Below are positions 1 through 15,712 of a stretch of 64,000 nucleotides of DNA, piece after piece. A program made the position numbers and the translations under genes. Positions within the stretch are counted from its first letter, which is position 1. Each line of letters opens with the position of its first letter. Source of the DNA: Pseudomonas bubulae (lineage in GTDB: Bacteria > Pseudomonadota > Gammaproteobacteria > Pseudomonadales > Pseudomonadaceae); assembly GCF_037023725.1 (NCBI RefSeq), contig NZ_CP146077.1, forward strand, positions 4,439,001-4,503,000, written 5' to 3'. The notes under the pieces were generated by a model. That model was given only the letters and a program-made list of their open reading frames with translations, had not been told where the DNA came from and made no database searches.

Positions 1-368
1 TGCTTGATATCTTCATCACGCCGCAAGGCATGGTCGTGGTAGCCCTGCTGCCAACGGCGGCCTGTTTGCCCAGTGGACTGGTTGATCGCGCGGGCGCTCA
101 ACGATTTTGTGCGACACATCAACTCATCCAGCGAGCCTTTATCAAGGCTGATCAGCCAATGAAAGTGATCCGGCATCACCACCCATGCCAGCGAAGTGGC
201 CAGCCCCTGCTCTTGTGCCCGCTTGAACTGTTCGACCACCCGTCGGCCTACACGCCAGTTCAGGAAAATCGGTTGGCGTTCAAGCGTATTGGCGGTCAGA
301 AGATAAATGCGATTTTGCTCGCTGTAACGACCACGGCGCAGGCGGTGGGAGGCAGAAAAAGAAGGCAT
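1..368 (-). CDS. REP-associated tyrosine transposase (RAYT), 3' end cut by window edge
   Basis: Reading leftwards from an ATG at 368, the first 122 codons of a Y1/IS200-like transposase-family protein are present; the rest lies outside the window. The metal-binding HUH motif is seen as H-F-H at residues 68-70 within VMPDHFHWLI, and a YHDHALR stretch follows near residue 112, both typical of RAYT (TnpA-REP) proteins. The catalytic tyrosine is expected further downstream, beyond the edge. RAYTs are single-copy domesticated transposases that nick single-stranded REP hairpins and are thought to spread REPINs. The REP array immediately upstream (481-827) is the usual genomic arrangement. Family identification is firm; whether the full gene is intact cannot be judged here. 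Confidence 0.85.
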   Translation of the reverse strand, partial: MPSFSASHRLRRGRYSEQNRIYLLTANTLERQPIFLNWRVGRRVVEQFKRAQEQGLATSLAWVVMPDHFHWLISLDKGSLDELMCRTKSLSARAINQSTGQTGRRWQQGYHDHALRRDEDIK

Positions 369-836: not shown

Positions 837-2105
837 TCAGGCGGGAGCAAGGGTGGCCAAGGGCGCTTCCGGTGCCTGCGGCTCCTTGAGCAACGCAAAG
901 TAGGCAAAGGCCGAACACGCCGCCACCACCGCACTGATCACAAATGCCGAGGAAAACGAACCGCTCTGCTGCACGCTGAATCCAGTCAGGATCGGCGCTA
1001 TGGAACCTGCCAGGTAACCGCCAAAGTTCTGGATCGAGCCAAACGAAGCCACACGCTCCGACGGCACAATGGTGTTGACGATCATCCACGCCGTGGCACT
1101 GGAGATGTTGATAAAGAACATGGTCAGGCACAGCAGGATCACGCACGCCACCACGTTGGTGGTAAAGGCCACAATCAGGGTAAACAGCGCCCCGCCCAGC
1201 AGCCCCAGAATCACCATCAGCTTGCGGCTGGCCAATACCCGCATGCCTCGCGCCACCAGTCGATCACAGCATTTACCGGCCACAATGGTGCCCAACGCGC
1301 CAAACAAATAAGCCAGCGATACCACCCAGGCCGTGCGATACAGATCCAGACCGTGCTCACGCTCAAAATAACCGGGCAACCAGGTGAGATTGAGCCAGAT
1401 CATGTAAATCACACCCATAAACCCGAGGAACGCCCCCCAGGTGTTGCGATCCCTGAACAACGAGGTCCAGCGCACTTTCGCCGCCTTGACCTGTTGCACC
1501 GGCACCGGTTCCGCACGACCTGTCTCGGCCATGTATTGCGCCTTGCTCTTGTAGAACTTGAACCAGCACAGTGCCAATACCAGTCCCATGACGCCGGTAA
1601 GGATAAACATCCCGCGCCAGCCCAGATGCACCATGAACACGGTCAGCAACGGCGGCGCCAGGCACGGGCCGATACAGGTCGAAGACCACACCCAGCCGGT
1701 CGCCGTGCCGCGCTCCTGGGTATCGAACCACTCTGACAATGCCTTGGCCGCCGAAGGAAACACCGGTGCCTCACCTATCCCCAGCAACACCCGCAAGCCA
1801 ACCAGATGGCCATAGCTGCTGAACAGGCCGAAGGCCGCCTGCGCAACCGACCACACCACCAGCGATCCACCCAGTGCCAGCTTGCTGCCCAACTTGTCGA
1901 TCAAGGCACCAAGAGGCAGTTGTGAAAAGGCGTAGGCAATGGAGAACGCCGAGAGCATCACCCCCATTTGCATCGGGCTGATGGCCAGGTCTTTCTGGAT
2001 GGTGGTGTTGGCGATGGATAAGGCGCTGCGGTCAAGGTAGTTGACCACGCCAATCAGGAACAGGAAGAAGATCGTCAGCGTCTTGTAGCTTTTTATTGTT
2101 CTCAT
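837..2105 (-). CDS. MFS transporter, ACS (anion:cation symporter) family
   Basis: A 422-residue inner-membrane permease with the twelve-helix MFS pattern. The N-terminal FLIGVVNYLDRSALSIA and the loop LGALIDKLGSKLA (the conserved GxxxDRxGRR-like motif A) fit the ACS family, which imports hexuronates, galactonate, glucarate and related sugar acids. The ATG at 2105 has a GAGAGG Shine-Dalgarno a few bases upstream. It is transcribed leftwards, in the same direction as the LysR gene 116 bp upstream, and one copy of the candidate operator (2208-2222) lies in that gap. Given the sugar-acid enzymes on the other side of the regulator, an aldonate or deoxy-aldonate is the likely cargo; the exact substrate cannot be read from sequence. 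Confidence 0.85.
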   Translation of the reverse strand: MRTIKSYKTLTIFFLFLIGVVNYLDRSALSIANTTIQKDLAISPMQMGVMLSAFSIAYAFSQLPLGALIDKLGSKLALGGSLVVWSVAQAAFGLFSSYGHLVGLRVLLGIGEAPVFPSAAKALSEWFDTQERGTATGWVWSSTCIGPCLAPPLLTVFMVHLGWRGMFILTGVMGLVLALCWFKFYKSKAQYMAETGRAEPVPVQQVKAAKVRWTSLFRDRNTWGAFLGFMGVIYMIWLNLTWLPGYFEREHGLDLYRTAWVVSLAYLFGALGTIVAGKCCDRLVARGMRVLASRKLMVILGLLGGALFTLIVAFTTNVVACVILLCLTMFFINISSATAWMIVNTIVPSERVASFGSIQNFGGYLAGSIAPILTGFSVQQSGSFSSAFVISAVVAACSAFAYFALLKEPQAPEAPLATLAPA

Positions 2106-2207
2106 ACGCGCCTCTCATGAGCGGTTGCGCCCCTACCCGACAGGTGGGGCGACGCTCACTTTAGAGGGCGGTTTGGCCTGTGCCCAATTACATCATTCCA
2201 TCAGTTA

Positions 2208-2222
2208 ATAACCGCGCGTTAT
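2208..2222. promoter_or_regulatory. Candidate LysR-type operator (copy 1)
   Basis: The 15-bp dyad ATAACCGCGCGTTAT has perfect ATAAC/GTTAT arms with a 5-bp centre, and fits the T-N11-A pattern of LysR-type binding sites. It sits just after the end of the regulator gene and about 100 bp upstream of the MFS gene start. The same ATAAC-N5-GTTAT arrangement recurs at 3182-3196 on the other side of the regulator. Confidence 0.5.
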
Positions 2223-3178
2223 CAAGGTGTCTGGCGAGCACCGCGCAGGGCATCGGGACCACTTAACAAGGCGTCGATAAAGGCTTTTGCCGACCACTGC
2301 GGGACATCGTTGCGCCGGGTAATCACCCCGTAGTCAGCCAGCACCAGCGGAAACGGCAAGGCCAGGCGAGTCAGGCGACCGGCCTGGATTTCCGGTTCGA
2401 CCATCGACTCGGCCAGCATCGCCACCGACGGCGTGGTTTGCAGCAGTTGCATGGTGGTCTGCAAGGACACGGTTTCGACGGTGTTTTCCGGGGTCTGCAT
2501 GCCTGCTTCGACGAAGGCTTTTTCCACCCGCGCGCGCATCGGCGTGCCCGTCGGGTAAATCACCCACGGCCAACTGCCCAAATCCGCCAGTGGCACTTCA
2601 CTGGCCCCGGCCAGCGGGTGCTGGCTGCCCGTAACCAGGCACAACGGCTCCGGCGCCAGCGCCTGGAATTCAAACAACTCACGATGACGATCGAGGGTAA
2701 AACGGGCCACCACCAGGTCCAGTTCCTTGTGTTCGAGCAAGGTCAGCATATTGGCACTGGTGCCCTCAAGCACTTGCACGGTGAGCAACGGCCAGTCCTG
2801 CTTGACCCGCACAATGGCAGCAGGCACGGCCAGGGCTGTGGCCGCATAAATGGTGCCGACCTTGATCAGGCCATGCCCACCCTGGCGCAGATGGTTGATC
2901 TGGCTGACAAACTGACCGGTGTCGTTCAACGCGATCTGGGCAAAACGGGCCACATGGCTGCCCAGATCGGTAAGGGTCATGCTGCGCGGCAAACGGGCAA
3001 ATACTTCGAAGCCCAGCTGGTGCTCGATTTCGCGCAACATCTTGCTCACGGCTGGCTGGCTGATGCTCATTTCCTGCGCAGTCGCATGCATGTTTTGCGT
3101 GCGCGCCAGGGTGTCGATCAGCACCAAATGGCGAAACCGCAGCCAGTTGCACAACTGGTTAAATCCGACATCCGCCAT
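2222..3178 (-). CDS. LysR-family transcriptional regulator
   Basis: A 318-residue LysR-type regulator from the ATG at 3178 (MADVGFNQL...). The N-terminal winged helix-turn-helix is seen as TAQEMSISQPAVSKMLREIE, roughly residues 31-50, followed by the substrate-binding domain. An in-frame ATG exists at 3217, but 3178 is preferred because LysR proteins normally begin about ten residues before the LRFRHL segment. The bases just upstream, GGGGGTT, could serve as Shine-Dalgarno and also overlap the candidate operator, which would allow autoregulation. The gene lies between the leftward MFS gene and the divergent SDR-led catabolic set, so it is the likely local regulator responding to a sugar acid or its keto-deoxy product (inference). 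Confidence 0.88.
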   Translation of the reverse strand: MADVGFNQLCNWLRFRHLVLIDTLARTQNMHATAQEMSISQPAVSKMLREIEHQLGFEVFARLPRSMTLTDLGSHVARFAQIALNDTGQFVSQINHLRQGGHGLIKVGTIYAATALAVPAAIVRVKQDWPLLTVQVLEGTSANMLTLLEHKELDLVVARFTLDRHRELFEFQALAPEPLCLVTGSQHPLAGASEVPLADLGSWPWVIYPTGTPMRARVEKAFVEAGMQTPENTVETVSLQTTMQLLQTTPSVAMLAESMVEPEIQAGRLTRLALPFPLVLADYGVITRRNDVPQWSAKAFIDALLSGPDALRGARQTP

Positions 3179-3181
3179 CCG

Positions 3182-3196
3182 ATAACCCCCGGTTAT
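3182..3196. promoter_or_regulatory. Candidate LysR-type operator (copy 2)
   Basis: ATAACCCCCGGTTAT repeats the ATAAC-N5-GTTAT dyad of 2208-2222. It lies between the regulator start (3178) and the divergent SDR gene (3285), where a site controlling both the catabolic genes and the regulator would be expected. Confidence 0.5.
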
Positions 3197-3284
3197 TAAG
3201 ACCTGAGAATATCTCATTGGCGATTATCGCAAAGCAATATTAGTGTGCAGCTGTTGGGCCAAATAATAACAACGGACTTTCGTC

Positions 3285-4025
3285 ATGAACCTAGCCAACA
3301 AACGTGTGCTGATAACTGCTGCGGCGCAAGGCATAGGCCGCGCTTCGGTACTGGCCTTTCGCGATGCGGGCGCGCAGGTCATCGCCACCGACCTGCATGT
3401 CGAAGCCCTGCAAGATATCCCCGGTATTCAAGTCCTGCCCCTGGACGTGACCCAAGCTTGCGCCATCGATGCCATCTGCCAGCAACTGGGCGCTATCGAC
3501 GTGCTGTTCAACTGCGCAGGCTATGTGCACAGCGGTGCCCTGCTGGAGTGCGACGAGCAGGCCTGGCAATTTTCTTTCGACCTCAATGTCACCGCCATGT
3601 ACCGCATGATCCGCGGCTTCCTCCCCGGCATGCTGGAAAACGGCGGCGGCTCGATCATCAACATGGCTTCGGTGGCCTCCAGCGTCAAAGGCGTGCCCAA
3701 CCGCTTTGCCTACACCGCCAGCAAGGCTGCGGTGATCGGCCTGACCAAATCGGTCGCCGCCGACTACGTGCGCCAGGGCATTCGCTGCAACGCCATTTGC
3801 CCCGGCACGGTGGACTCCCCTTCGCTACGCCAGCGCATCGCCGAACAGGCCCTTGAGCAAGGGCGCTCCGAAGCTGAGGTCTATCAGGCCTTTGTTGACC
3901 GCCAGCCCATGGGCCGCATCGGCAGCGCTGAAGAAATCGCACAACTGGCGCTGTACCTGGCCAGCGATGCCAGCAGCTATACCACCGGCACCGTCCAGGT
4001 GATCGATGGCGGGATGAGTAATTAA
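3285..4025 (+). CDS. SDR-family oxidoreductase, probable 2-keto-3-deoxy-sugar-acid dehydrogenase
   Basis: A 246-residue classical short-chain dehydrogenase. The nucleotide-binding stretch is TAAAQGIG (residues 11-18), NCAG is at 76-79, and the catalytic Ser129, Tyr143 and Lys147 (YTASK) are present. The DLHVEALQDIPGI region and the overall pattern resemble the DHRS6/2-keto-3-deoxy-L-fuconate dehydrogenase branch, NAD-dependent enzymes that oxidise C4 of 2-keto-3-deoxy sugar acids to 2,4-diketo acids. The next gene encodes an FAH-family protein of the kind that hydrolyses such diketo acids, which supports the assignment. It is the first gene of the rightward set divergent from the LysR gene. 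The substrate (L-fuconate type or another) is inferred, not shown. Confidence 0.8.
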   Translation: MNLANKRVLITAAAQGIGRASVLAFRDAGAQVIATDLHVEALQDIPGIQVLPLDVTQACAIDAICQQLGAIDVLFNCAGYVHSGALLECDEQAWQFSFDLNVTAMYRMIRGFLPGMLENGGGSIINMASVASSVKGVPNRFAYTASKAAVIGLTKSVAADYVRQGIRCNAICPGTVDSPSLRQRIAEQALEQGRSEAEVYQAFVDRQPMGRIGSAEEIAQLALYLASDASSYTTGTVQVIDGGMSN

Positions 4026-4043
4026 GCATTTTGTGGGAAACCC

Positions 4044-4130
4044 TGTGGGAGCGAGCCTGCTCGCGATGCAGGCACCTCGGTGTTTAAGTGGCACCGCATT
4101 GATGCATTCGCGAGCAGGCTCGCTCCCACA
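4044..4130. repeat. REPIN (inverted REP pair)
   Basis: TGTGGGAGCGAGCCTGCTCGCGA is answered 44 bases on by its reverse complement ending CTCGCTCCCACA. It separates the SDR and FAH genes and would fold into a large hairpin in the polycistronic RNA. Confidence 0.85.
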
Positions 4131-4163
4131 CTAGATTTATTTCCATGCACCAAAGGAGCTTTT

Positions 4164-5012
4164 ATGAAACTGCTGCGCTACGGCGATAAAGGTCAGGAAA
4201 AACCCGGCCTGCTCGATGCCCAAGGCAATATCCGCGATTTGTCGGCGCATATCGCCGACGTTGCAGGCGCTGCGCTGTCAGCCGCAAGCCTGGAAACACT
4301 GAGCAAAATCGACCCCGCCAGTTTGCCCCTGGTCAGCGGTTCGCCACGTATCGGCGCCTGCGTCGGCCAGGTCGGCAAGTTTATCTGCATCGGCCTGAAC
4401 TACGCCGACCACGCTGCCGAGTCGGGCCTGGCGGTGCCGTCGGAACCGGTGGTATTCAGCAAATGGACCAGCGCCATCTGCGGTCCCAACGACAACGTGG
4501 AAATCCCCCGCGACTCGACCAAAACCGACTGGGAAGTCGAGCTGGGCGTGGTGATCGGCAAGGGTGGACGCAATATCGATGAACATAACGCCCTGGAGCA
4601 CGTGGCCGGATACTGCGTGATCAACGATGTGTCGGAGCGCGAATGGCAGATCGAACGTGGCGGCACCTGGGACAAGGGCAAGGGCTTTGACACCTTTGGC
4701 CCCCTCGGACCATGGCTGGTGACCCGCGATGAGATCAGCGACCCGCACCAGCTCGACCTTTGGCTTGAAGTCGACGGACAGCGCTACCAGAACGGCAACA
4801 CCCGCACCATGGTCTTTCAGATCCCGGCCCTGATTGCTTACCTGAGCCGCTGCATGTCGCTGCAACCGGGCGACGTGATTTCCACCGGCACACCGCCGGG
4901 TGTGGGCCTGGGGATCAAGCCAACCCCGGTGTACCTGCGCGCAGGCCAGGTCATGCACCTGGGCATCAGCGGCCTTGGCGAACAGCGCCAGCTCACCGTA
5001 CAGGCCGACTGA
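4164..5012 (+). CDS. FAH-family hydrolase, probable 2,4-diketo-3-deoxy-L-fuconate hydrolase type
   Basis: A 282-residue fumarylacetoacetate hydrolase-fold protein. GLNYADH (78-84), the metal-binding acids in DWEVELGVVIG (Glu124, Glu126) and Asp155, and the C-terminal GDVISTGTPPGVG signature are all seen. In the non-phosphorylating L-fucose pathway an enzyme of this type hydrolyses 2,4-diketo-3-deoxy-fuconate to pyruvate and lactate. The ATG at 4164 has a strong AAAGGAG Shine-Dalgarno. It follows the SDR gene after a REPIN and is probably co-transcribed. The fold is certain; the diketo-hydrolase role rests on the neighbouring SDR, and ureidoglycolate lyase-like or 5-oxopent-3-ene-dioate decarboxylase-like activity are alternatives. 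Confidence 0.82.
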   Translation: MKLLRYGDKGQEKPGLLDAQGNIRDLSAHIADVAGAALSAASLETLSKIDPASLPLVSGSPRIGACVGQVGKFICIGLNYADHAAESGLAVPSEPVVFSKWTSAICGPNDNVEIPRDSTKTDWEVELGVVIGKGGRNIDEHNALEHVAGYCVINDVSEREWQIERGGTWDKGKGFDTFGPLGPWLVTRDEISDPHQLDLWLEVDGQRYQNGNTRTMVFQIPALIAYLSRCMSLQPGDVISTGTPPGVGLGIKPTPVYLRAGQVMHLGISGLGEQRQLTVQAD

Positions 5013-5049
5013 CTTCACGCTCACACAACTATAAGAAAGGGTTTTACAC

Positions 5050-6024
5050 ATGCGCATTCTGATTACTGGCGGCACCGGCTTTATCGGCAAACAACTGGCC
5101 CAGCGCCTGCTCGACATGAACAGCCTGACCTTTGAAGGCCAGGCGCCTCGCACCATTGAGCGCATCGTGTTGTTCGACGCCTTTGCCGGCGAAGATGTGC
5201 CGAGCGACCCGCGTATCGAACTGGTGACCGGCGATATAGCCGACCCCGATGTCATCGCCCGCGTCACCGATGGCGTGGATCTGGTATGGCATCTGGCAGC
5301 CGTGGTCAGCTCGGCGGCCGAAGCGGATTTCGACCTGGGCATGCAGGTCAACCTGCACGGCCTGATGCTGCTGCTCGAAACCCTGCGCAAGCAAGGCAAC
5401 GCGCCGCGCTTCGTCTACGCCAGCGGTTTTGCAGTATTCGGCGGCGCCCTGCCGCCAGTAGTCGATGACAACACCGTGCTTACCCCACAATCGTCCTACG
5501 GCATGCAAAAAGCCGTAGGCGAATTGCTGGTCGCCGACTATGCGCGCAAAGGCTTTGTCGACGGCCGGGTGCTGCGCCTGCCAACCGTGGCTGTACGCCC
5601 CGGCAAGCCGAACAAGGCGGCCTCGACCTTCTTCAGTTCGATCATCCGCGAGCCACTGGTGGGCCTGCCTGCCGTATGCCCGGTACGCCCGGATACCCAG
5701 GTTTATCTCACCTCGCCGCGGCGCATTATTGAGTCGATGCTGCTGGGCATGACCCTGTCGCCAGAAACCCTGGGCAACCAGCGCATTATCCCGCTGCCGG
5801 GCGTGACCACCACCGTGGCCGACATGGTCGCGGCGCTGCAACGGGTGGCCGGTGATGACGTGGCCAAACTGATTCGCTGGGAGCCCGACGCGACTATCCA
5901 GCGTATCGTCGAAAGCTGGCCGAGCAAGGTAGAAGCCCCCCGTGCCCGTGCCCTGGGCTTTACCGCCGACGCGGACTTCGATGCCATCGTGCGCGCACAT
6001 ATCGAGGATACGGCCGACAAATAG
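5050..6024 (+). CDS. NAD-dependent epimerase/dehydratase family protein, D-erythronate dehydrogenase (DenD)-like
   Basis: A 324-residue extended SDR. It opens with the Rossmann motif GGTGFIG (residues 7-13) and has the catalytic pair Tyr150/Lys154 in SSYGMQK. Length and the start MRILITGGTGFIGKQLA resemble DenD, which oxidises D-erythronate at C2, and related sugar-acid or sugar-lactone dehydrogenases. The start has AGAAAGGG upstream. The kinase, isomerase and decarboxylase partners of the known erythronate route (OtnK, OtnI, OtnC) are absent from this cluster, so a different aldonate, or an aldose oxidation step, is quite possible. It lies 37 bp after the FAH gene in the same orientation. 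Confidence 0.72.
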   Translation: MRILITGGTGFIGKQLAQRLLDMNSLTFEGQAPRTIERIVLFDAFAGEDVPSDPRIELVTGDIADPDVIARVTDGVDLVWHLAAVVSSAAEADFDLGMQVNLHGLMLLLETLRKQGNAPRFVYASGFAVFGGALPPVVDDNTVLTPQSSYGMQKAVGELLVADYARKGFVDGRVLRLPTVAVRPGKPNKAASTFFSSIIREPLVGLPAVCPVRPDTQVYLTSPRRIIESMLLGMTLSPETLGNQRIIPLPGVTTTVADMVAALQRVAGDDVAKLIRWEPDATIQRIVESWPSKVEAPRARALGFTADADFDAIVRAHIEDTADK

Positions 6025-6037
6025 CCCACCACCCCCT

Positions 6038-6124
6038 TGTGGGAGCGGGCTTGCTCGCGATCAAGGCGACGCGGTGCAACTGAAGCCCCGCAGCGATCCC
6101 ATCGCGAGCAAGTCCGCTCCCACA
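6038..6124. repeat. REPIN (inverted REP pair)
   Basis: TGTGGGAGCGGGCTTGCTCG at 6038 pairs with the reverse complement ending CCGCTCCCACA at 6124. It fills most of the 171-bp gap between the DenD-like and second MFS genes. Confidence 0.85.
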
Positions 6125-6195
6125 AAAAGCCCTGTCTCACCCAAATGCTGCAACGCTCACGCTACTCACAACAATAAAAACTGAGGTCGTGCCAC

Positions 6196-7563
6196 ATGAC
6201 TACTCCACTCACCGATGTCTCGGACATCGAACAACAGACAATCAAGCGCGTGACCAGGCGCATGATTCCTTTTCTTGTACTGCTGTTTGTGGTCGCCTTT
6301 CTGGACCGCAACAACGTCGGTTTCGCCGCACTGCGCATGAACGAAGATATCGGCATCAGCCAGACCATTTATGGCCTGGGCGCAGGTATTTTCTTCCTCG
6401 GCTATTTCATGTTCGAAGTGCCGAGCAACATTTTGCTGCACCGCTACGGCGCCCGTGTATGGATCGCGCGGATCATGGTGACCTGGGGCATCATCGCCGG
6501 CGCCATGGGTTTCCTGCAGACGCCAATCCACTTCATCTCCCTGCGCGTGCTGCTGGGTATTGCCGAAGCCGGGTTCTTCCCTGGCGTGATCTATCTGCTG
6601 TCGCTGTGGTTCCCGAGCCGCTATCGCGCACGCATGATCGCCTCGTTTTATCTGGGCGTACCCATCGCGCAAATCATCGGCGCACCGCTGTCGGTGGGCC
6701 TGATGGAGATGGGCGATGCCTGGGGCTTTGTCGGCTGGCGCCTGATGTACATCGTCGAAGCCGTACCGGCGGTGATCCTCGGTGTGGTGTGCTACTTCTA
6801 CCTCACCGACCACCCGGCCGATGCCCACTGGCTGACCGACAAACAGCGCACCTGGCTGATCAACACCCTGGCCCAGGAAGAGCGCAACAAACCGCTGGTG
6901 GTGGGAGTGCAACCGACCAAGGGCCAGATGATCCGCAAGGCCCTGTGCAACCGCCAGGTATGGCTGCTGGCACTGGTGTATTTCGGCATCACCTCGGGCT
7001 CCAACGCGATGAACTTCTTCATGCCAACGGTTCTGGCATCGTTCCGCGGTACCTTCGGCCTGGAAATCGGCCTGATGCAGAACGGCCTGATCACCGCCAT
7101 TCCCTATGCCGTTGCTGCTGTGGCGATGATCTGGTGGAGCCGGCGCTCTGACCGCCTGCAAGAACGTCACTGGCATGCCGGCGGTGCCGCCATGCTCGCG
7201 GCAGTGTCGATTGCCGTGGCGCTGTGGCTCAACCAGCCGTGGATCATTGTCATCGGTTTCATTCTGCTGGCGATGGGCGTGTACAGCGCGATCAACGTGT
7301 TCTGGGCAGTCCCCGGGCAAGTGCTGACCGGTGTCGGCGCGGCCGTGGGCATTGGCCTGATCAACTCCATCGGCAACCTCAGCGGTTTTATCGGCCCTTA
7401 CCTGACCGGCTACCTGTTCACCGTGACCGGCAGCTACACCCCGGGGTTTCTGGTGATCGCCGCACTGGTTGGCCTGGGTGGCCTGGGCATGGTGCTGATG
7501 CCGCGCAATAAAGAATCGCAAATTGGCGCCGCACTGGCCCCTGCCACTGGAGGAAAAGCATGA
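6196..7563 (+). CDS. MFS transporter, ACS family (second sugar-acid permease)
   Basis: A 455-residue inner-membrane permease. The N-terminal helix carries the family hallmark FLDRNNVGFAALRMNEDIG, followed by FFLGYFMFEVPSN and the motif after helix 4 (RVLLGIAEAGFFPGVIYLLSLWFP) typical of ACS members such as tartrate or galactonate transporters. It is unlike the MFS protein at 837-2105, so the cluster has two distinct uptake proteins. Its stop overlaps the start of the next dehydrogenase gene by four bases (ATGA), indicating translational coupling. A dicarboxylic or monocarboxylic sugar acid is the likely cargo. Confidence 0.87.
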   Translation: MTTPLTDVSDIEQQTIKRVTRRMIPFLVLLFVVAFLDRNNVGFAALRMNEDIGISQTIYGLGAGIFFLGYFMFEVPSNILLHRYGARVWIARIMVTWGIIAGAMGFLQTPIHFISLRVLLGIAEAGFFPGVIYLLSLWFPSRYRARMIASFYLGVPIAQIIGAPLSVGLMEMGDAWGFVGWRLMYIVEAVPAVILGVVCYFYLTDHPADAHWLTDKQRTWLINTLAQEERNKPLVVGVQPTKGQMIRKALCNRQVWLLALVYFGITSGSNAMNFFMPTVLASFRGTFGLEIGLMQNGLITAIPYAVAAVAMIWWSRRSDRLQERHWHAGGAAMLAAVSIAVALWLNQPWIIVIGFILLAMGVYSAINVFWAVPGQVLTGVGAAVGIGLINSIGNLSGFIGPYLTGYLFTVTGSYTPGFLVIAALVGLGGLGMVLMPRNKESQIGAALAPATGGKA

Positions 7564-8444
7564 ACCTGCCAAGCGTAGCCTTTATCGGTACCGGGATCAT
7601 GGGCCTGCCCATGGCCCGCAACCTGCTGCACGCCGGCTTCCCGGTGCGGGCCTGGAACCGCTCCCCGGGCAAGTTGCAGGCGCTGGCAACACTGGGGGCG
7701 GCGGTTGCGCCGACCCCGGCAGGCGCGGCAGACGGTGCTCAGGTGCTGATCTGCATGCTCAGCGATGGCCCAACCTGTGACGAGGTGCTGTTTGGTGAAA
7801 ACGGTGCCGCCCTGGCACTGGCACCGGGGGCGCTGGTGATCGTGATGAGTTCGATCCCGGTCGACACCGCCGTTGAACAGGCGCGGTTGTGTGCCGAACG
7901 CCGCCTGCGCTACCTCGATGCTCCGGTGTCGGGGGGCGAGCGCGGAGCGCGGGAGGCCAGCCTGGCAATCATGGTTGGCGGCGAAACGGCCGCCTTTGAG
8001 CAGGGCCGCGAAGTACTGGCCGCCATGGGCCGCCCGGTGCATGTCGGCCCGGCGGGCACCGGCGAGTTGTCCAAGCTGGTCAACCAGTTGATCGTCGCCA
8101 GCACCATCGCCACCGTCGCCGAGGGCTTGCTGCTGGCCGAGCGCGGCGGCGCCGACCCGGCAAAGGTCCACGAAGCGTTGATGGGTGGTTTTGTCGACTC
8201 GCCGATCTGGCGCCAGCACGGCCAACGCATGCTGAACAACGATTTCACTCCCGGTGGCCCGGCCAAATGGCAGCTCAAAGACACCCGCACCGCCCTCGCC
8301 CAGGCGCAGAAGCTGGGCCTGGACCTGCCGGTCGGCCGCCTGGTGGACAGCCTGTTTGCCGCCATGGTCGAGGCCGGTGACGGCGAACTCGACCACGCCG
8401 GACTGATCCGCCAGTTGCGCCGCAACAACCCATTGCCTGAATAA
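7560..8444 (+). CDS. NAD(P)-dependent beta-hydroxyacid dehydrogenase (GarR/LtnD-like)
   Basis: A 294-residue member of the 3-hydroxyisobutyrate/tartronate-semialdehyde dehydrogenase family. The Rossmann motif FIGTGIMGLPMARNL (residues 8-22), the substrate motif DAPVSGGERGA (120-130) and the catalytic lysine Lys172 with Asn175 (GTGELSKLVNQ) are present. Enzymes of this family reduce tartronate semialdehyde or oxidise L-threonate and related hydroxyacids. The start overlaps the upstream permease gene by four bases, so the two are coupled. A 2- or 3-hydroxyacid oxidation in sugar-acid breakdown fits, but the substrate is unresolved. Confidence 0.83.
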   Translation: MNLPSVAFIGTGIMGLPMARNLLHAGFPVRAWNRSPGKLQALATLGAAVAPTPAGAADGAQVLICMLSDGPTCDEVLFGENGAALALAPGALVIVMSSIPVDTAVEQARLCAERRLRYLDAPVSGGERGAREASLAIMVGGETAAFEQGREVLAAMGRPVHVGPAGTGELSKLVNQLIVASTIATVAEGLLLAERGGADPAKVHEALMGGFVDSPIWRQHGQRMLNNDFTPGGPAKWQLKDTRTALAQAQKLGLDLPVGRLVDSLFAAMVEAGDGELDHAGLIRQLRRNNPLPE

Positions 8445-8465
8445 AATAATCAGCCGGAGCCTGCC

Positions 8466-10250
8466 ATGACCGATTCAACCCCACGCCGCCTGCGCAGCCA
8501 GCTGTGGTTCGACGACCCAAGCCACGCCGACCTGACCGCACTGTATGTGGAACGTTACATGAACCAGGGCCTGACCCGCGCCGAACTGCAATCGGGGCGG
8601 CCGATTATCGGCATCGCCCAGACCGGCAGCGACCTGACGCCCTGCAACCGCCATCACATCGAACTGGCCAAGCGGGTCAAGGACGGCATTCGCGATGCAG
8701 GTGGCATCCCGATGGAGTTTCCGGTACACCCGATTGCCGAACAGTCGCGCCGCCCCACCGCGGCCCTCGACCGCAACCTCGCCTACCTGGGCCTGGTCGA
8801 GGTGCTGCATGGTTACCCGCTGGACGGCGTGGTGCTGACCACCGGTTGCGACAAAACCACCCCGGCCTGCCTGATGGCTGCGGCCACCACTGACCTGCCT
8901 TCCATCGTACTGTCCGGCGGGCCGATGCTCGACGGCTGGCACAAAGGCCAGCGCATTGGTTCGGGCACCGTACTGTGGCATGCGCGCAATCTGCTCAGCG
9001 CCGGCGAAATCGATTACGAAGGCTTTATGACCCTGACCACCGCATCATCGCCGTCGGTGGGTCACTGCAACACCATGGGCACTGCGCTGTCGATGAACGC
9101 CCTGGCCGAGGCACTGGGTATGTCCCTGCCCGGCTGCGCGAGCATCCCGGCACCGTACCGCGAGCGCGGGCAAATGGCCTATGCCACCGGGATGCGCATC
9201 GTCGACCTGGTGCGCGAAGACGTACGCCCCTCCCAGATCATGACCCACGCAGCCTTCGAAAACGCCATTGCCGTGGCCTCGGCGCTGGGCGCATCCACCA
9301 ACTGCCCGCCGCACCTGATTGCCATCGCCCGCCACAGCGGTATCGAGCTGTCACTGGAAGACTGGCAGCGCGTCGGCGAAGACGTGCCCTTGCTGGTCAA
9401 CTGCATGCCCGCCGGCGAGTACCTGGGTGAAAGCTTCCACCGCGCAGGCGGTGTACCGGCGGTGATGCATGAACTGGACAAGGTCGGCCGCCTGCACCGC
9501 GACTGCCTCACGGTCAGTGGCCGCAGCATGGGTGACGTGGTTGCCGACTGCGTCACCGGCGACCGTGACGTGATCCGTTCCTACGAAGACCCGCTGATGC
9601 ACCGAGCCGGTTTTATCGTACTCAGCGGCAACTTCTTCGACAGTGCCATCATGAAAATGTCAGTGGTGGGCGAAGCATTTCGCAAGACCTACCTCAGCGA
9701 CCCGTTGCAACCCAACAGCTTCGAAGCGCGGGCTATTGTGTTCGAGGGCCCGGAAGACTACACGGCGCGGATCAACGACCCTTCGCTGGACATCGACGAG
9801 CGCTGCATTCTGGTGATTCGAGGCTGCGGCACCGTGGGCTTCCCCGGCAGCGGCGAGGTCGTGAACATGGCGCCACCTTCCAACCTGATCAAGGCCGGGA
9901 TCGACTCCCTGCCCTGCATGGGTGATGGCCGCCAAAGCGGCACCTCGGCCAGCCCGTCAATTCTCAACATGTCCCCGGAATCTGCGGTGGGTGGCGGTCT
10001 GTCGTTACTGCGCACCGGCGATCGCCTGCGCGTCGACCTCAACGCGCGCAGCGTCAACCTGCTGGTGGACGAAAGCGTGCTCAACGAACGCCGCCAGGAA
10101 CCGCTGCCACCGCTGGCCCCGTCACAAACTCCGTGGCAGGAACTCTACCGCCAACTGGTCGGCCAGCTCTCCACCGGCGGCTGCCTCGAACCGGCCACCC
10201 TGTACTGGCGCGTGATCCCGGAAAACGGCCCGCCCCGTCACTCCCACTAG
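8466..10250 (+). CDS. IlvD/EDD-family sugar-acid dehydratase (L-arabinonate/D-xylonate dehydratase type)
   Basis: A 594-residue dehydratase. The three cysteines expected to hold the iron-sulfur cluster are at Cys60, Cys128 and Cys201 (DLTPCNRHH, TTGCDKTTPA, SVGHCNTMG), close to the positions known in L-arabinonate and D-xylonate dehydratases; Lys129 is the likely carbamylated metal ligand. It would convert an aldonate to a 2-keto-3-deoxy acid, the compound consumed by the SDR/FAH pair or by the FAH-fold protein at 10383. GCCGGAGCC upstream of the ATG at 8466 is a plausible ribosome site. Length and motifs favour the sugar-acid branch over dihydroxyacid dehydratase (IlvD). Confidence 0.86.
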   Translation: MTDSTPRRLRSQLWFDDPSHADLTALYVERYMNQGLTRAELQSGRPIIGIAQTGSDLTPCNRHHIELAKRVKDGIRDAGGIPMEFPVHPIAEQSRRPTAALDRNLAYLGLVEVLHGYPLDGVVLTTGCDKTTPACLMAAATTDLPSIVLSGGPMLDGWHKGQRIGSGTVLWHARNLLSAGEIDYEGFMTLTTASSPSVGHCNTMGTALSMNALAEALGMSLPGCASIPAPYRERGQMAYATGMRIVDLVREDVRPSQIMTHAAFENAIAVASALGASTNCPPHLIAIARHSGIELSLEDWQRVGEDVPLLVNCMPAGEYLGESFHRAGGVPAVMHELDKVGRLHRDCLTVSGRSMGDVVADCVTGDRDVIRSYEDPLMHRAGFIVLSGNFFDSAIMKMSVVGEAFRKTYLSDPLQPNSFEARAIVFEGPEDYTARINDPSLDIDERCILVIRGCGTVGFPGSGEVVNMAPPSNLIKAGIDSLPCMGDGRQSGTSASPSILNMSPESAVGGGLSLLRTGDRLRVDLNARSVNLLVDESVLNERRQEPLPPLAPSQTPWQELYRQLVGQLSTGGCLEPATLYWRVIPENGPPRHSH

Positions 10251-10269
10251 ACACGACAAACACATTACC

Positions 10270-10355
10270 TGTGGGAGCGAGCCTGCTCGCGAAGCAGATA
10301 CTGCAGATGGTCAGCCAACCCGTGGTGACTTGATCGCGACCAAGCTCGCTCCCAC
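10270..10355. repeat. REPIN (inverted REP pair)
   Basis: TGTGGGAGCGAGCCTGCTCG at 10270 pairs with the imperfect reverse complement ending AGCTCGCTCCCACC... near 10355. The right arm has diverged (GATCGCGACCAAG). It lies between the dehydratase gene and the final gene of the set. Confidence 0.8.
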
Positions 10356-10382
10356 CAAGCACTCTTTTCAAGGATCACGTAT

Positions 10383-11570
10383 ATGCAAACGCTGCAATTG
10401 ACCATAGAAAACACCCTGCCCGATGACTGGCAGCGCGCCACCCTGGTCGGTCGCGTGTGGTTGCCCGGCGAACGTGGCGGCCCGGCCGTGGTGGTGATTC
10501 GTGACGGTGAAGTAATCGACTGCACGGCCCACTTCCCCACCCTGAGCCTGCTGCTCGATAGCGACAACCCGCTGCAAGCCGTGCGTGAAATCCGCGGCAC
10601 CGTATTGGGCACGATCCAGGCCTTGCTGGCCAACAGCGGCGAGCAGCGCGACATGGCCAAACCCTACCTGCTGGCCCCGGCAGATCTGCAAGTGATCAAG
10701 GCGGCGGGTGTCACCTTTGCTGCCAGCATGATCGAACGGGTGATCGAGGAAAAAGCCGGAGGCGATGCCCACCGTGCCGAAGAGGTTCGTGCCCTGGTGC
10801 ACGAAGTGATTGGTAATAACCTGCGCGACCTGCGCCCCGGCTCGCCAGAAGCCATGCGCCTCAAACAAGTGCTGATCGAACAGAACATGTGGTCGCAGTA
10901 CCTGGAAGTGGGTATCGGCCCCGACGCCGAAATTTTCACCAAGGCACCGATCCTCGCTGCTGTGGGCAGCGGCAGCGCCATTGGCATCCACCCCGGTTCA
11001 AGCTGGAACAACCCGGAGCCGGAAGTGGTGCTGGCGGTAGACAGCCAGGGCCGGATCCACGGCGCGACCCTGGGCAACGACGTCAACCTGCGCGACTTCG
11101 AAGGTCGCAGCGCGTTACTGCTGAGCAAGGCCAAGGACAACAACGCCTCCTGTGCGCTGGGGCCCTTTATTCGCCTGTTTGACGAACACTTCAACCTCGA
11201 CGACGTGCGCCATTGTGAAGTGACCTTGCGTGTTGAAGGTGTCGATGGCTACGTGCTGAACGGCAAAAGCTCAATGAACCAGATCAGCCGCGACCCGGCG
11301 GACCTGGCCGAACAGACGCTCAACGCCAACCACCAGTACCCGGACGGTTTTGTCCTGTTCCTGGGTACCCTGTTCGCTCCTACAGAAGACCGCGACCAAC
11401 CGGGCCAGGGGTTTACCCATAAGGCCGATGATGTTGTAAGCATCTCGTCACCGACACTGGGAGCGTTGCACAACCGCGTGACCGGCAGCGACCAGGCGCC
11501 ACAATGGGCGTTCGGGGTCAGTGCACTGATGAAGAACCTGGCGGGCCGCGGGCTGCTCGGCCAGGCCTGA
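10383..11570 (+). CDS. FAH-superfamily protein, AraD1/XylX-like 2-keto-3-deoxy-acid dehydratase candidate
   Basis: A 395-residue protein with an N-terminal extension and a C-terminal FAH-fold domain. The metal-site pattern is seen in GIGPDAEIFTKAP, SWNNPEPEVVLAVDSQGRIHGATLGNDVNLRDFEGRS is split here into its two halves around residues 205-240, and VTLRVEGVDG follows. Length and layout match AraD1/GguC-type proteins and the Caulobacter XylX type, which dehydrate 2-keto-3-deoxy-pentonates to alpha-ketoglutarate semialdehyde. It closes the rightward set, after a REPIN, and is followed by a terminator at 11593. No ketoglutarate-semialdehyde dehydrogenase is encoded here, so that step would have to be supplied elsewhere. 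Confidence 0.75.
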   Translation: MQTLQLTIENTLPDDWQRATLVGRVWLPGERGGPAVVVIRDGEVIDCTAHFPTLSLLLDSDNPLQAVREIRGTVLGTIQALLANSGEQRDMAKPYLLAPADLQVIKAAGVTFAASMIERVIEEKAGGDAHRAEEVRALVHEVIGNNLRDLRPGSPEAMRLKQVLIEQNMWSQYLEVGIGPDAEIFTKAPILAAVGSGSAIGIHPGSSWNNPEPEVVLAVDSQGRIHGATLGNDVNLRDFEGRSALLLSKAKDNNASCALGPFIRLFDEHFNLDDVRHCEVTLRVEGVDGYVLNGKSSMNQISRDPADLAEQTLNANHQYPDGFVLFLGTLFAPTEDRDQPGQGFTHKADDVVSISSPTLGALHNRVTGSDQAPQWAFGVSALMKNLAGRGLLGQA

Positions 11571-11633: not shown

Positions 11634-11710
11634 TGGTGTCCCAGGCGGGGTTCGAACCTGCAACCTTCCCCTTAGGAGGGGGATGCTCTATCCAATTGAG
11701 CTACTGAGAC
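11634..11710 (-). tRNA. tRNA-Arg (anticodon CCU)
   Basis: The reverse strand starts GTCTCAGTAGCTCAATTGGA and ends with the acceptor strand and encoded CCA. The anticodon loop CTCCTAA gives CCU, and the GGTTCGAACC T-arm is intact. Seventy-seven bases including CCA. Confidence 0.95.
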
Positions 11711-14993: not shown

Positions 14994-15070
14994 TGGTGCA
15001 CTCGACAGGATTCGAACCTGTGACCGCTCGGTTCGTAGCCGAGTACTCTATCCAGCTGAGCTACGAGTGC
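14994..15070 (-). tRNA. tRNA-Arg (anticodon ACG), copy 4 in transcription order
   Basis: Reverse strand reads GCACTCGTAGCTCAGCTGGA, has anticodon loop CTACGAA (ACG, read as ICG) and an encoded CCA. It is identical to the other three copies. Confidence 0.97.
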
Positions 15071-15141
15071 AGGTTGTGTTTGTTAAACCAGACCACCGCT
15101 GGCTGAAGCAAAGCCAACTGCCTGGGCAATTGACTCTTAAA

Positions 15142-15218
15142 TGGTGCACTCGACAGGATTCGAACCTGTGACCGCTCGGTTCGTAGCCGAGTACTCTATC
15201 CAGCTGAGCTACGAGTGC
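15142..15218 (-). tRNA. tRNA-Arg (anticodon ACG), copy 3
   Basis: Identical 77-base gene exactly 148 bp from its neighbour; encoded CCA and anticodon ACG. Confidence 0.97.
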
Positions 15219-15289
15219 AAGTTGTGTTTGATAGACCAGACCACCGCTGGTTGAAGCAAAACCAACCGCCTGGGCGATTGACTCTTAAA

Positions 15290-15366
15290 TGGTGCACTCG
15301 ACAGGATTCGAACCTGTGACCGCTCGGTTCGTAGCCGAGTACTCTATCCAGCTGAGCTACGAGTGC
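15290..15366 (-). tRNA. tRNA-Arg (anticodon ACG), copy 2
   Basis: Identical 77-base gene, again 148 bp from its neighbours, with near-identical 71-bp spacers on both sides. Confidence 0.97.
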
Positions 15367-15437
15367 AAGTTGTGTTTGATAGACCAGACCACCGCTGGTT
15401 GAAGCAAAACCAATCGCCTTGGCAATTGACTCTTAAA

Positions 15438-15514
15438 TGGTGCACTCGACAGGATTCGAACCTGTGACCGCTCGGTTCGTAGCCGAGTACTCTATCCAGC
15501 TGAGCTACGAGTGC
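15438..15514 (-). tRNA. tRNA-Arg (anticodon ACG), copy 1
   Basis: First tRNA-Arg in the leftward transcript, following tRNA-Ser; identical body, anticodon ACG and encoded CCA. Confidence 0.97.
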
Positions 15515-15621
15515 ATTTGAAGCGGCGCATTATAGACCGTTGAATCTCTCTGGCAAGATTTTTTTTCAGTATTTTCAACAACTTACTGAACTGCCTAGAT
15601 TACAACGTGCTACATGAATAA

Positions 15622-15712
15622 TGGCGGAGAAGGGGGGATTCGAACCCCCGACACCCTTTTGAGATGTACTCCCTTAGCAGGGGAGCGCCTTCGGCCACTC
15701 GGCCACCTCTCC
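15622..15712 (-). tRNA. tRNA-Ser (anticodon GCU)
   Basis: Reverse strand starts GGAGAGGTGGCCGAGTGG, has the long variable arm typical of tRNA-Ser, anticodon loop CTGCTAA (GCU) and an encoded CCA. Together with the four tRNA-Arg genes it forms one leftward tRNA cluster downstream of rsmA. Confidence 0.96.

Follow-up and report, generated by a model that had tools for sequence, protein, structure and literature searches.

Two lower routes from 2-keto-3-deoxy-D-pentonate (D-KDP) have been described in the same organism. In Herbaspirillum huttiense, Routes II and III were shown with purified proteins (Watanabe et al. 2019, PMC6336799; here and below, articles with a PMC number are represented by excerpts). 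For Pseudomonas sp. BP8, Park et al. (2022, PMC10107873) proposed both routes in a single xyl locus; compared with glucose, growth on xylose raised the abundance of its XylD, XylX, XylA, the two permeases, dehydrogenase 1, the lyase and dehydrogenase 2. We analyzed a 64,000-nucleotide stretch of Pseudomonas bubulae (contig NZ_CP146077.1, positions 4,439,001 to 4,503,000; hereafter the window), which carried a nine-gene cluster at positions 837-11570. This cluster probably serves D-xylonate catabolism through the same two lower routes, with a module added that consists of a DenD-like dehydrogenase, a second permease (MFS2) and a GarR-like dehydrogenase. All nine open reading frames were intact and their families were confirmed by profile searches; from these families, their conserved residues and their co-occurrence, all directly observed, we infer which reactions and substrate are involved and what the module does. 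An earlier sequence-only reading had named these proteins at the right positions and in the right families, omitting only the LysR-type regulator (2222-3217, minus strand), and had rightly described a single dehydratase followed by two branches, one through a dehydrogenase and a diketo-hydrolase and the other through a dehydratase, with two more dehydrogenases and two ACS permeases.

The cluster shared with the BP8 locus the genes for XylD, XylX, LysR, an MFS permease, an SDR of 741 nucleotides and a hydrolase of 849 nucleotides, the lengths being identical, whereas a KGSA (alpha-ketoglutaric semialdehyde) dehydrogenase, an MHS permease and a hydroxypyruvate-reductase-like dehydrogenase 2 occurred only in BP8, and the excerpt of that report makes no mention of a DenD/GarR pair (PMC10107873). 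H. huttiense likewise converts D-KDP to KGSA with a FAH-fold dehydratase, and to pyruvate and glycolate with an SDR and a FAH hydrolase, but there the genes are spread over several clusters, the D-arabinonate dehydratase is of the UxaA/GarD type, and no DenD/GarR module appears in the excerpt (PMC6336799). XylD of the window (8466-10250, plus strand), an IlvD/EDD sugar-acid dehydratase and probable D-xylonate dehydratase, was 64% identical to the Caulobacter D-xylonate dehydratase (5oyn, 592 columns), 82-85% identical to XylD of other Pseudomonas and 84% identical to XylD of L079, a locus with the order hydrolase, SDR, MFS permease, KGSA dehydrogenase, LysR, XylX, MHS permease, XylD, which is the BP8 operon order, mirrored. 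Its C-terminal residue was His594, and a terminal histidine is described as fully conserved among sugar-acid dehydratases (PMC11316719). XylD, XylX and LysR of the window matched the xylose-induced operon type, and relatives of the LysR regulator (45-55% identity) adjoined XylX/XylD in many other Pseudomonas loci. Since the two-route arrangement has already been described (PMC6336799, PMC10107873), D-xylonate is most likely the substrate; it would be taken up through an ACS permease and dehydrated by XylD to D-KDP.

In Route II, XylX (10383-11570, plus strand), a large FAH-fold protein and predicted 2-keto-3-deoxypentonate dehydratase, would dehydrate D-KDP to KGSA, which a dehydrogenase encoded elsewhere would oxidize to alpha-ketoglutarate. 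XylX was 59% identical to entry 9kkt; in its alignment with an archaeal keto-deoxy-arabinonate dehydratase (2q18), Glu183 took the position of the EIF glutamate. The cluster contained no KGSA dehydrogenase gene, so that Route II would rely on a gene elsewhere; the genome search found a homologue of the operon type (75%) at C2:2619030, with further homologues beside a 4-hydroxyproline epimerase (52%) and at another place (46%). A 72% match to KGSA dehydrogenase residues 396-524 also lay in a 183-codon open frame at G000:C2:3824708-3825094 (plus strand), perhaps a gene remnant. In Route III, the classical SDR (3285-4025, plus strand), probably a 2-keto-3-deoxy-D-pentonate 4-dehydrogenase, would oxidize C4 of D-KDP, and the small FAH-fold hydrolase (4164-5012, plus strand) would split the resulting diketo acid into pyruvate and glycolate. 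The SDR was 66% identical over 247 columns to the H. huttiense enzyme with D-KDP bound (8y4j); its R140, T175, R184 and R206 corresponded to Arg148, Thr183, Arg192 and Arg214 of the type-1 motif, and Met244 stood at the site of Trp252, a residue listed as common there (PMC11199699). The hydrolase was 55% identical to 8gsr and kept His83 and Glu86, a His/Glu pair named for the H. huttiense hydrolase (PMC6336799), and it scored below the cut-off of the LRA6-type model, which represents the L-rhamnonate hydrolase type (436 against 500). Three pyrroloquinoline quinone (PQQ) membrane dehydrogenases exceeded their cut-off in the genome and might, by analogy, form xylonate from xylose in the periplasm, as reported for strain M2 (PMC10107873).

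We compared XylD-centred loci from a scan of genome contigs, using the best 80 of 592; here and below, a gene counts as absent from a locus when absent within the fetched stretch, which spanned at most 10 kb per side and was in some cases cut by a contig end. Of these 80 loci, 19 combined XylX with SDR and hydrolase (of these, the DenD module was also present in 4 and absent from 15), 38 had XylX without SDR/hydrolase or the module, 4 had XylX and the module without SDR/hydrolase, and in 19 XylD stood with none of these. Because of these counts and the BP8 locus, both routes in one Pseudomonas locus are a known, recurrent arrangement, and this part of the cluster is a further case of the described Pseudomonas xylonate operon. 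The sequence-only reading had held that no described pathway has exactly this set, which does not apply to the two routes (PMC6336799, PMC10107873) but stands for the DenD-permease-GarR module, for which no assigned role was found.

The DenD-MFS2-GarR module, whose likeliest role is to supply XylD with a second acid, is an addition beyond the classical Pseudomonas operon, conserved and new relative to the operon described; we found no description of it in searches of an open-licence literature library. It comprised the DenD-like extended SDR (5050-6024), MFS2, an ACS-type permease (6196-7563) that in this clade always lay beside the DenD-like gene, and the GarR-like member of the 3-hydroxyacid dehydrogenase family (7560-8444), all on the plus strand. 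Of 298 Pseudomonas genomes, 17 had a DenD orthologue (at least 84% identical), counting that of the window; all 17 encoded XylD, compared with 64 of the 298 overall (Fisher value 6.8e-13, which ignores relatedness). Besides the window, the 16 other loci all had LysR, SDR, hydrolase, MFS2 and GarR, while XylD with XylX, and also MFS1, were found in 14; the complete set of nine genes was present in 12, two lacked only MFS1 (L135, L136) and two lacked XylD/XylX (L132, L134). As the nine-gene set recurred at 12 of the 16, it is more than a chance neighbourhood. GarR (at least 78% identical) was found in 7 of 119 genomes, exactly the seven with a DenD orthologue. In three Acinetobacter loci (L062-L064), GarR-MFS2-DenD adjoined LysR-XylX-XylD-KGSA dehydrogenase and SDR/hydrolase were absent, and a P. 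japonica locus likewise kept the module without SDR/hydrolase; the module thus travels with XylD and not with Route III. The Acinetobacter loci are like the window in the module string adjoining LysR, XylX and XylD and unlike it in having the KGSA dehydrogenase and lacking SDR/hydrolase; our search of the open-licence literature yielded no description of these xylonate-type loci. Outside the genus the module was seldom seen: apart from the window's own protein, DenD matches at E <=1e-100 (51-56% identity in every case) came from one genome among 369 in the class and from four among 398 in the phylum. In these comparisons L008 and L138 stem from one genome, their DenD and SDR rows being identical, and there is overlap between L132 and L214.

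Several points weigh against D-xylonate catabolism with an added module. XylD was nearly as close to 7m3k, deposited as a galactonate dehydratase, as to 5oyn (843 against 871 bits), and the region 837-11570 lacked the KGSA dehydrogenase found in the classical operon. Two of the 17 genomes (G115, G155) carried the module without XylD/XylX beside it; in each, the single strong XylD match adjoined XylX at a different locus, and the G155 contig ended near GarR, leaving the adjoining site unreadable. Finally, that the module may bring a second acid to XylD is a guess at its role. The match to 7m3k would also suit a main substrate other than D-xylonate with a similar C2/C3 pattern, such as D-galactonate, D-fuconate or L-fuconate, as would the turnover of 2-keto-3-deoxy-L-fuconate (L-KDF) besides D-KDP in the SDR family (PMC11199699). 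We regard such a substrate as quite unlikely, given that KGSA formation by XylX starts from a five-carbon keto acid (PMC6336799), that XylD, XylX and LysR are of the xylose-induced operon type, and that a complete, separate L-fucose cluster lay upstream.

This non-phosphorylating L-fucose cluster was situated just upstream of the window (L123:5810-14547; G000:C2:4429810-4438547) and was found at the same place in 5 of 7 relatives fetched. It encoded an L-fucose dehydrogenase (434 bits, cut-off 300), FucP (338, cut-off 280) and a fuconolactonase-like protein (360 bits, below the cut-off of 400), together with a GntR-type regulator position, an enolase-superfamily dehydratase and an ACS permease, and its SDR and hydrolase were 72% and 82% identical to the window copies. 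The window cluster differed in having XylD, XylX, DenD and GarR, none of which occurred in the L-fucose cluster, and in lacking the enolase-superfamily dehydratase and FucP; fuconate dehydratase, lactonase and fucose dehydrogenase were absent from the window cluster and present upstream. The sequence-only reading had correctly recognized an SDR/FAH pair of the L-fuconate kind, a paralogous pair being present in the L-fucose cluster some 8 kb upstream, and the L-fuconate role itself would belong to that neighbour. In the SDR tree, the window SDR grouped with 36 other xylonate-locus SDRs (support 96/80), with six L-fucose SDRs outside. Recent copying of the L-fucose pair into the window cluster was rejected on this grouping, for the SDR only.

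A D-erythronate gene cluster of DenD, OtnK, OtnC and OtnI is said to have been described by Zhang et al. in 2016, and the L-threonate branch of the tetronate pathway is covered in the excerpt of PMC12540250. The window cluster resembled D-erythronate clusters in that DenD (50% identical to the L145 protein) adjoined an ACS permease (MFS2, about 42% identity), but it lacked OtnK, OtnC and OtnI and its DenD fell in a separate clade. By the NCBIfam model NF043036, the DenD-like protein is a D-erythronate dehydrogenase (461 bits, cut-off 325). We suggest that this label is probably wrong, because the protein belongs to a clade separate from the OtnK-associated DenDs and because the genome has no DUF1537 kinase (OtnK): PF07005 had no match in it, with control matches in 3 of 14 genomes. 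D-erythronate use via OtnK was rejected on the same search. In the DenD tree, the 25 rows with xylonate context formed one side of a branch (support 99/92; 200 of 200 bootstrap trees); the bootstrap was not yet stable and the outgroup met the xylonate clade through long branches, so we used the split between the groups and not the root, and L152 was counted in the OtnK group despite a DenD on a long branch. Twenty positions distinguished the two clades, among them 126 and 152, which adjoin catalytic residues, and 193, 195 and 197, which lie in one conserved stretch, and Ser125, Tyr150 and Lys154 were identical in both; at 50% identity, some clade-separating positions are expected by chance.

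That the enzyme is a true D-erythronate dehydrogenase, placed in a xylonate cluster by accident, seems unlikely, even though its model score is well above the cut-off and drift at 50% identity could account for the 20 positions, for the genome has no counterpart of the kinase found in known tetronate pathways. OtnK also lay near the DenD gene in 8 of 14 further Pseudomonas loci whose DenD was 47-52% identical, and OtnK, OtnC, OtnI and LtnD in all four loci taken from other families within the class, against none of the 17 genomic loci of the module. This contrast is weakened by the six Pseudomonas loci without OtnK nearby (L140, L141, L142, L148, L150, L153), which indicate that the DenD-OtnK link is not universal. 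Five of these six (L140, L141, L142, L148, L150) paired an OtnK-clade DenD (78-82% identical to L145) with an ACS permease and had no OtnK, OtnC or OtnI in the fetched stretch; DenD of L140 had a GntR regulator and a pirin as neighbours. A third DenD-like group at 38-39% identity occurred in L154-L159, of which the L157 copy lay beside FAH-fold, cyclase-family and 2Fe-2S proteins.

Asp43 was kept in both DenD clades, and we take it to be part of an NAD-type cofactor motif. The GarR-like protein carried a WNRSxxK motif, and another 25 rows of the clade, 22 from Pseudomonas and three from Acinetobacter, had WNR[ST]xxK, presumably an NADPH-type motif in this family; five LtnD-type rows had Asp at that place. 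Two-enzyme epimerization typically pairs an NAD-linked oxidation with a subsequent NADPH-linked reduction, and D-ribonate and D-lyxonate are the C3 and C2 epimers of D-xylonate. Given these two motifs and XylD as the constant partner of the module, we tentatively propose, as an extension of D-xylonate catabolism and as a possibility rather than an expectation, that the pair acts as an oxidoreductive epimerase feeding a second pentonate to XylD. The DenD-like enzyme would oxidize one hydroxyl of D-ribonate or D-lyxonate with NAD+; the GarR-like enzyme would then use NADPH to reduce the keto acid so that the configuration is inverted and D-xylonate results. The association of the module with XylD across Pseudomonas, its retention by Acinetobacter and P. 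japonica loci that have no SDR/hydrolase, the restriction of GarR orthologues to genomes with a DenD orthologue and the lack of a C4-acid kinase by the PF07005 search are consistent with this proposal. On the other hand, the substrates are predictions, relatives of both enzymes use tetronates or glycerate-type acids, and the use of D-xylonate epimers is not known for these species; we know of no enzyme pair of these two families described for such an epimerization.

Alternatively, GarR and DenD might clear two- or three-carbon products of Route III, for example tartronate semialdehyde derived from glycolate, and the tartronate-semialdehyde reductase model was indeed the nearest to GarR. We consider this very unlikely: GarR scored below the cut-off of that model (TIGR01505, 265.7 against 340.75), a separate locus of the gcl-hyi-glxR type was present in the genome, and 4 of the 8 module-bearing loci among the best 80 kept GarR and DenD without SDR/hydrolase (L006, L062-L064). 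GlcD, glyoxylate carboligase and GlxR all exceeded their cut-offs in the genome, a point in favour of D-xylonate catabolism, and the GarR-like protein also fell below that of the L-threonate dehydrogenase model (NF043037, 165.8 against 350). A housekeeping tartronate-semialdehyde reductase was rejected as an identity for GarR on the low score and the separate GlxR locus. The earlier suggestion that the cluster could take more than a single acid suits the module, although the core most likely acts on D-xylonate. If the pair is an epimerase, one operon would feed two sugar acids into two lower routes, bacterial use of rarer pentonates through one dehydratase would be shown, and Pseudomonas and Acinetobacter proteins of this clade would be misnamed D-erythronate dehydrogenase by the NCBIfam rule.

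The seven plus-strand genes spanned 3285-11570, with gaps of 138, 37, 171, -4, 21 and 132 bases. LysR and MFS1 lay on the opposite strand, LysR being divergent from the operon with start codons 67 bases apart. MFS1 (837-2105, minus strand), an ACS-type permease matching MFS_1, is a probable sugar-acid uptake protein whose nearest NCBIfam model, the D-galactonate transporter, it matched below cut-off. A scan for promoters and terminators gave 1 promoter-like and 9 terminator-like sites, not above shuffled sequences (2.8 and 11.2). REP-like repeats with the core GTGGGAGC lay between genes at 476-865 (three tandem 130-base copies), 4042-4130, 6033-6162 and 10268-10350, the last three lying in the three long gaps of the operon. 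Because the repeat fills 4042-4130 and relatives match the 282-residue form over its full length, we preferred ATG 4164 over GTG 4080 as the start of the hydrolase. Positions 1-368 (minus strand) of the window held part of a 152-residue IS200-like (Y1_Tnp) transposase, probably REP-associated. A tRNA-Arg(CCT) gene, a possible insertion site, was situated directly 3' of the cluster at 11634-11710, and four tRNA-Arg(ACG) genes and one tRNA-Ser(GCT) gene followed at 14994-15712.

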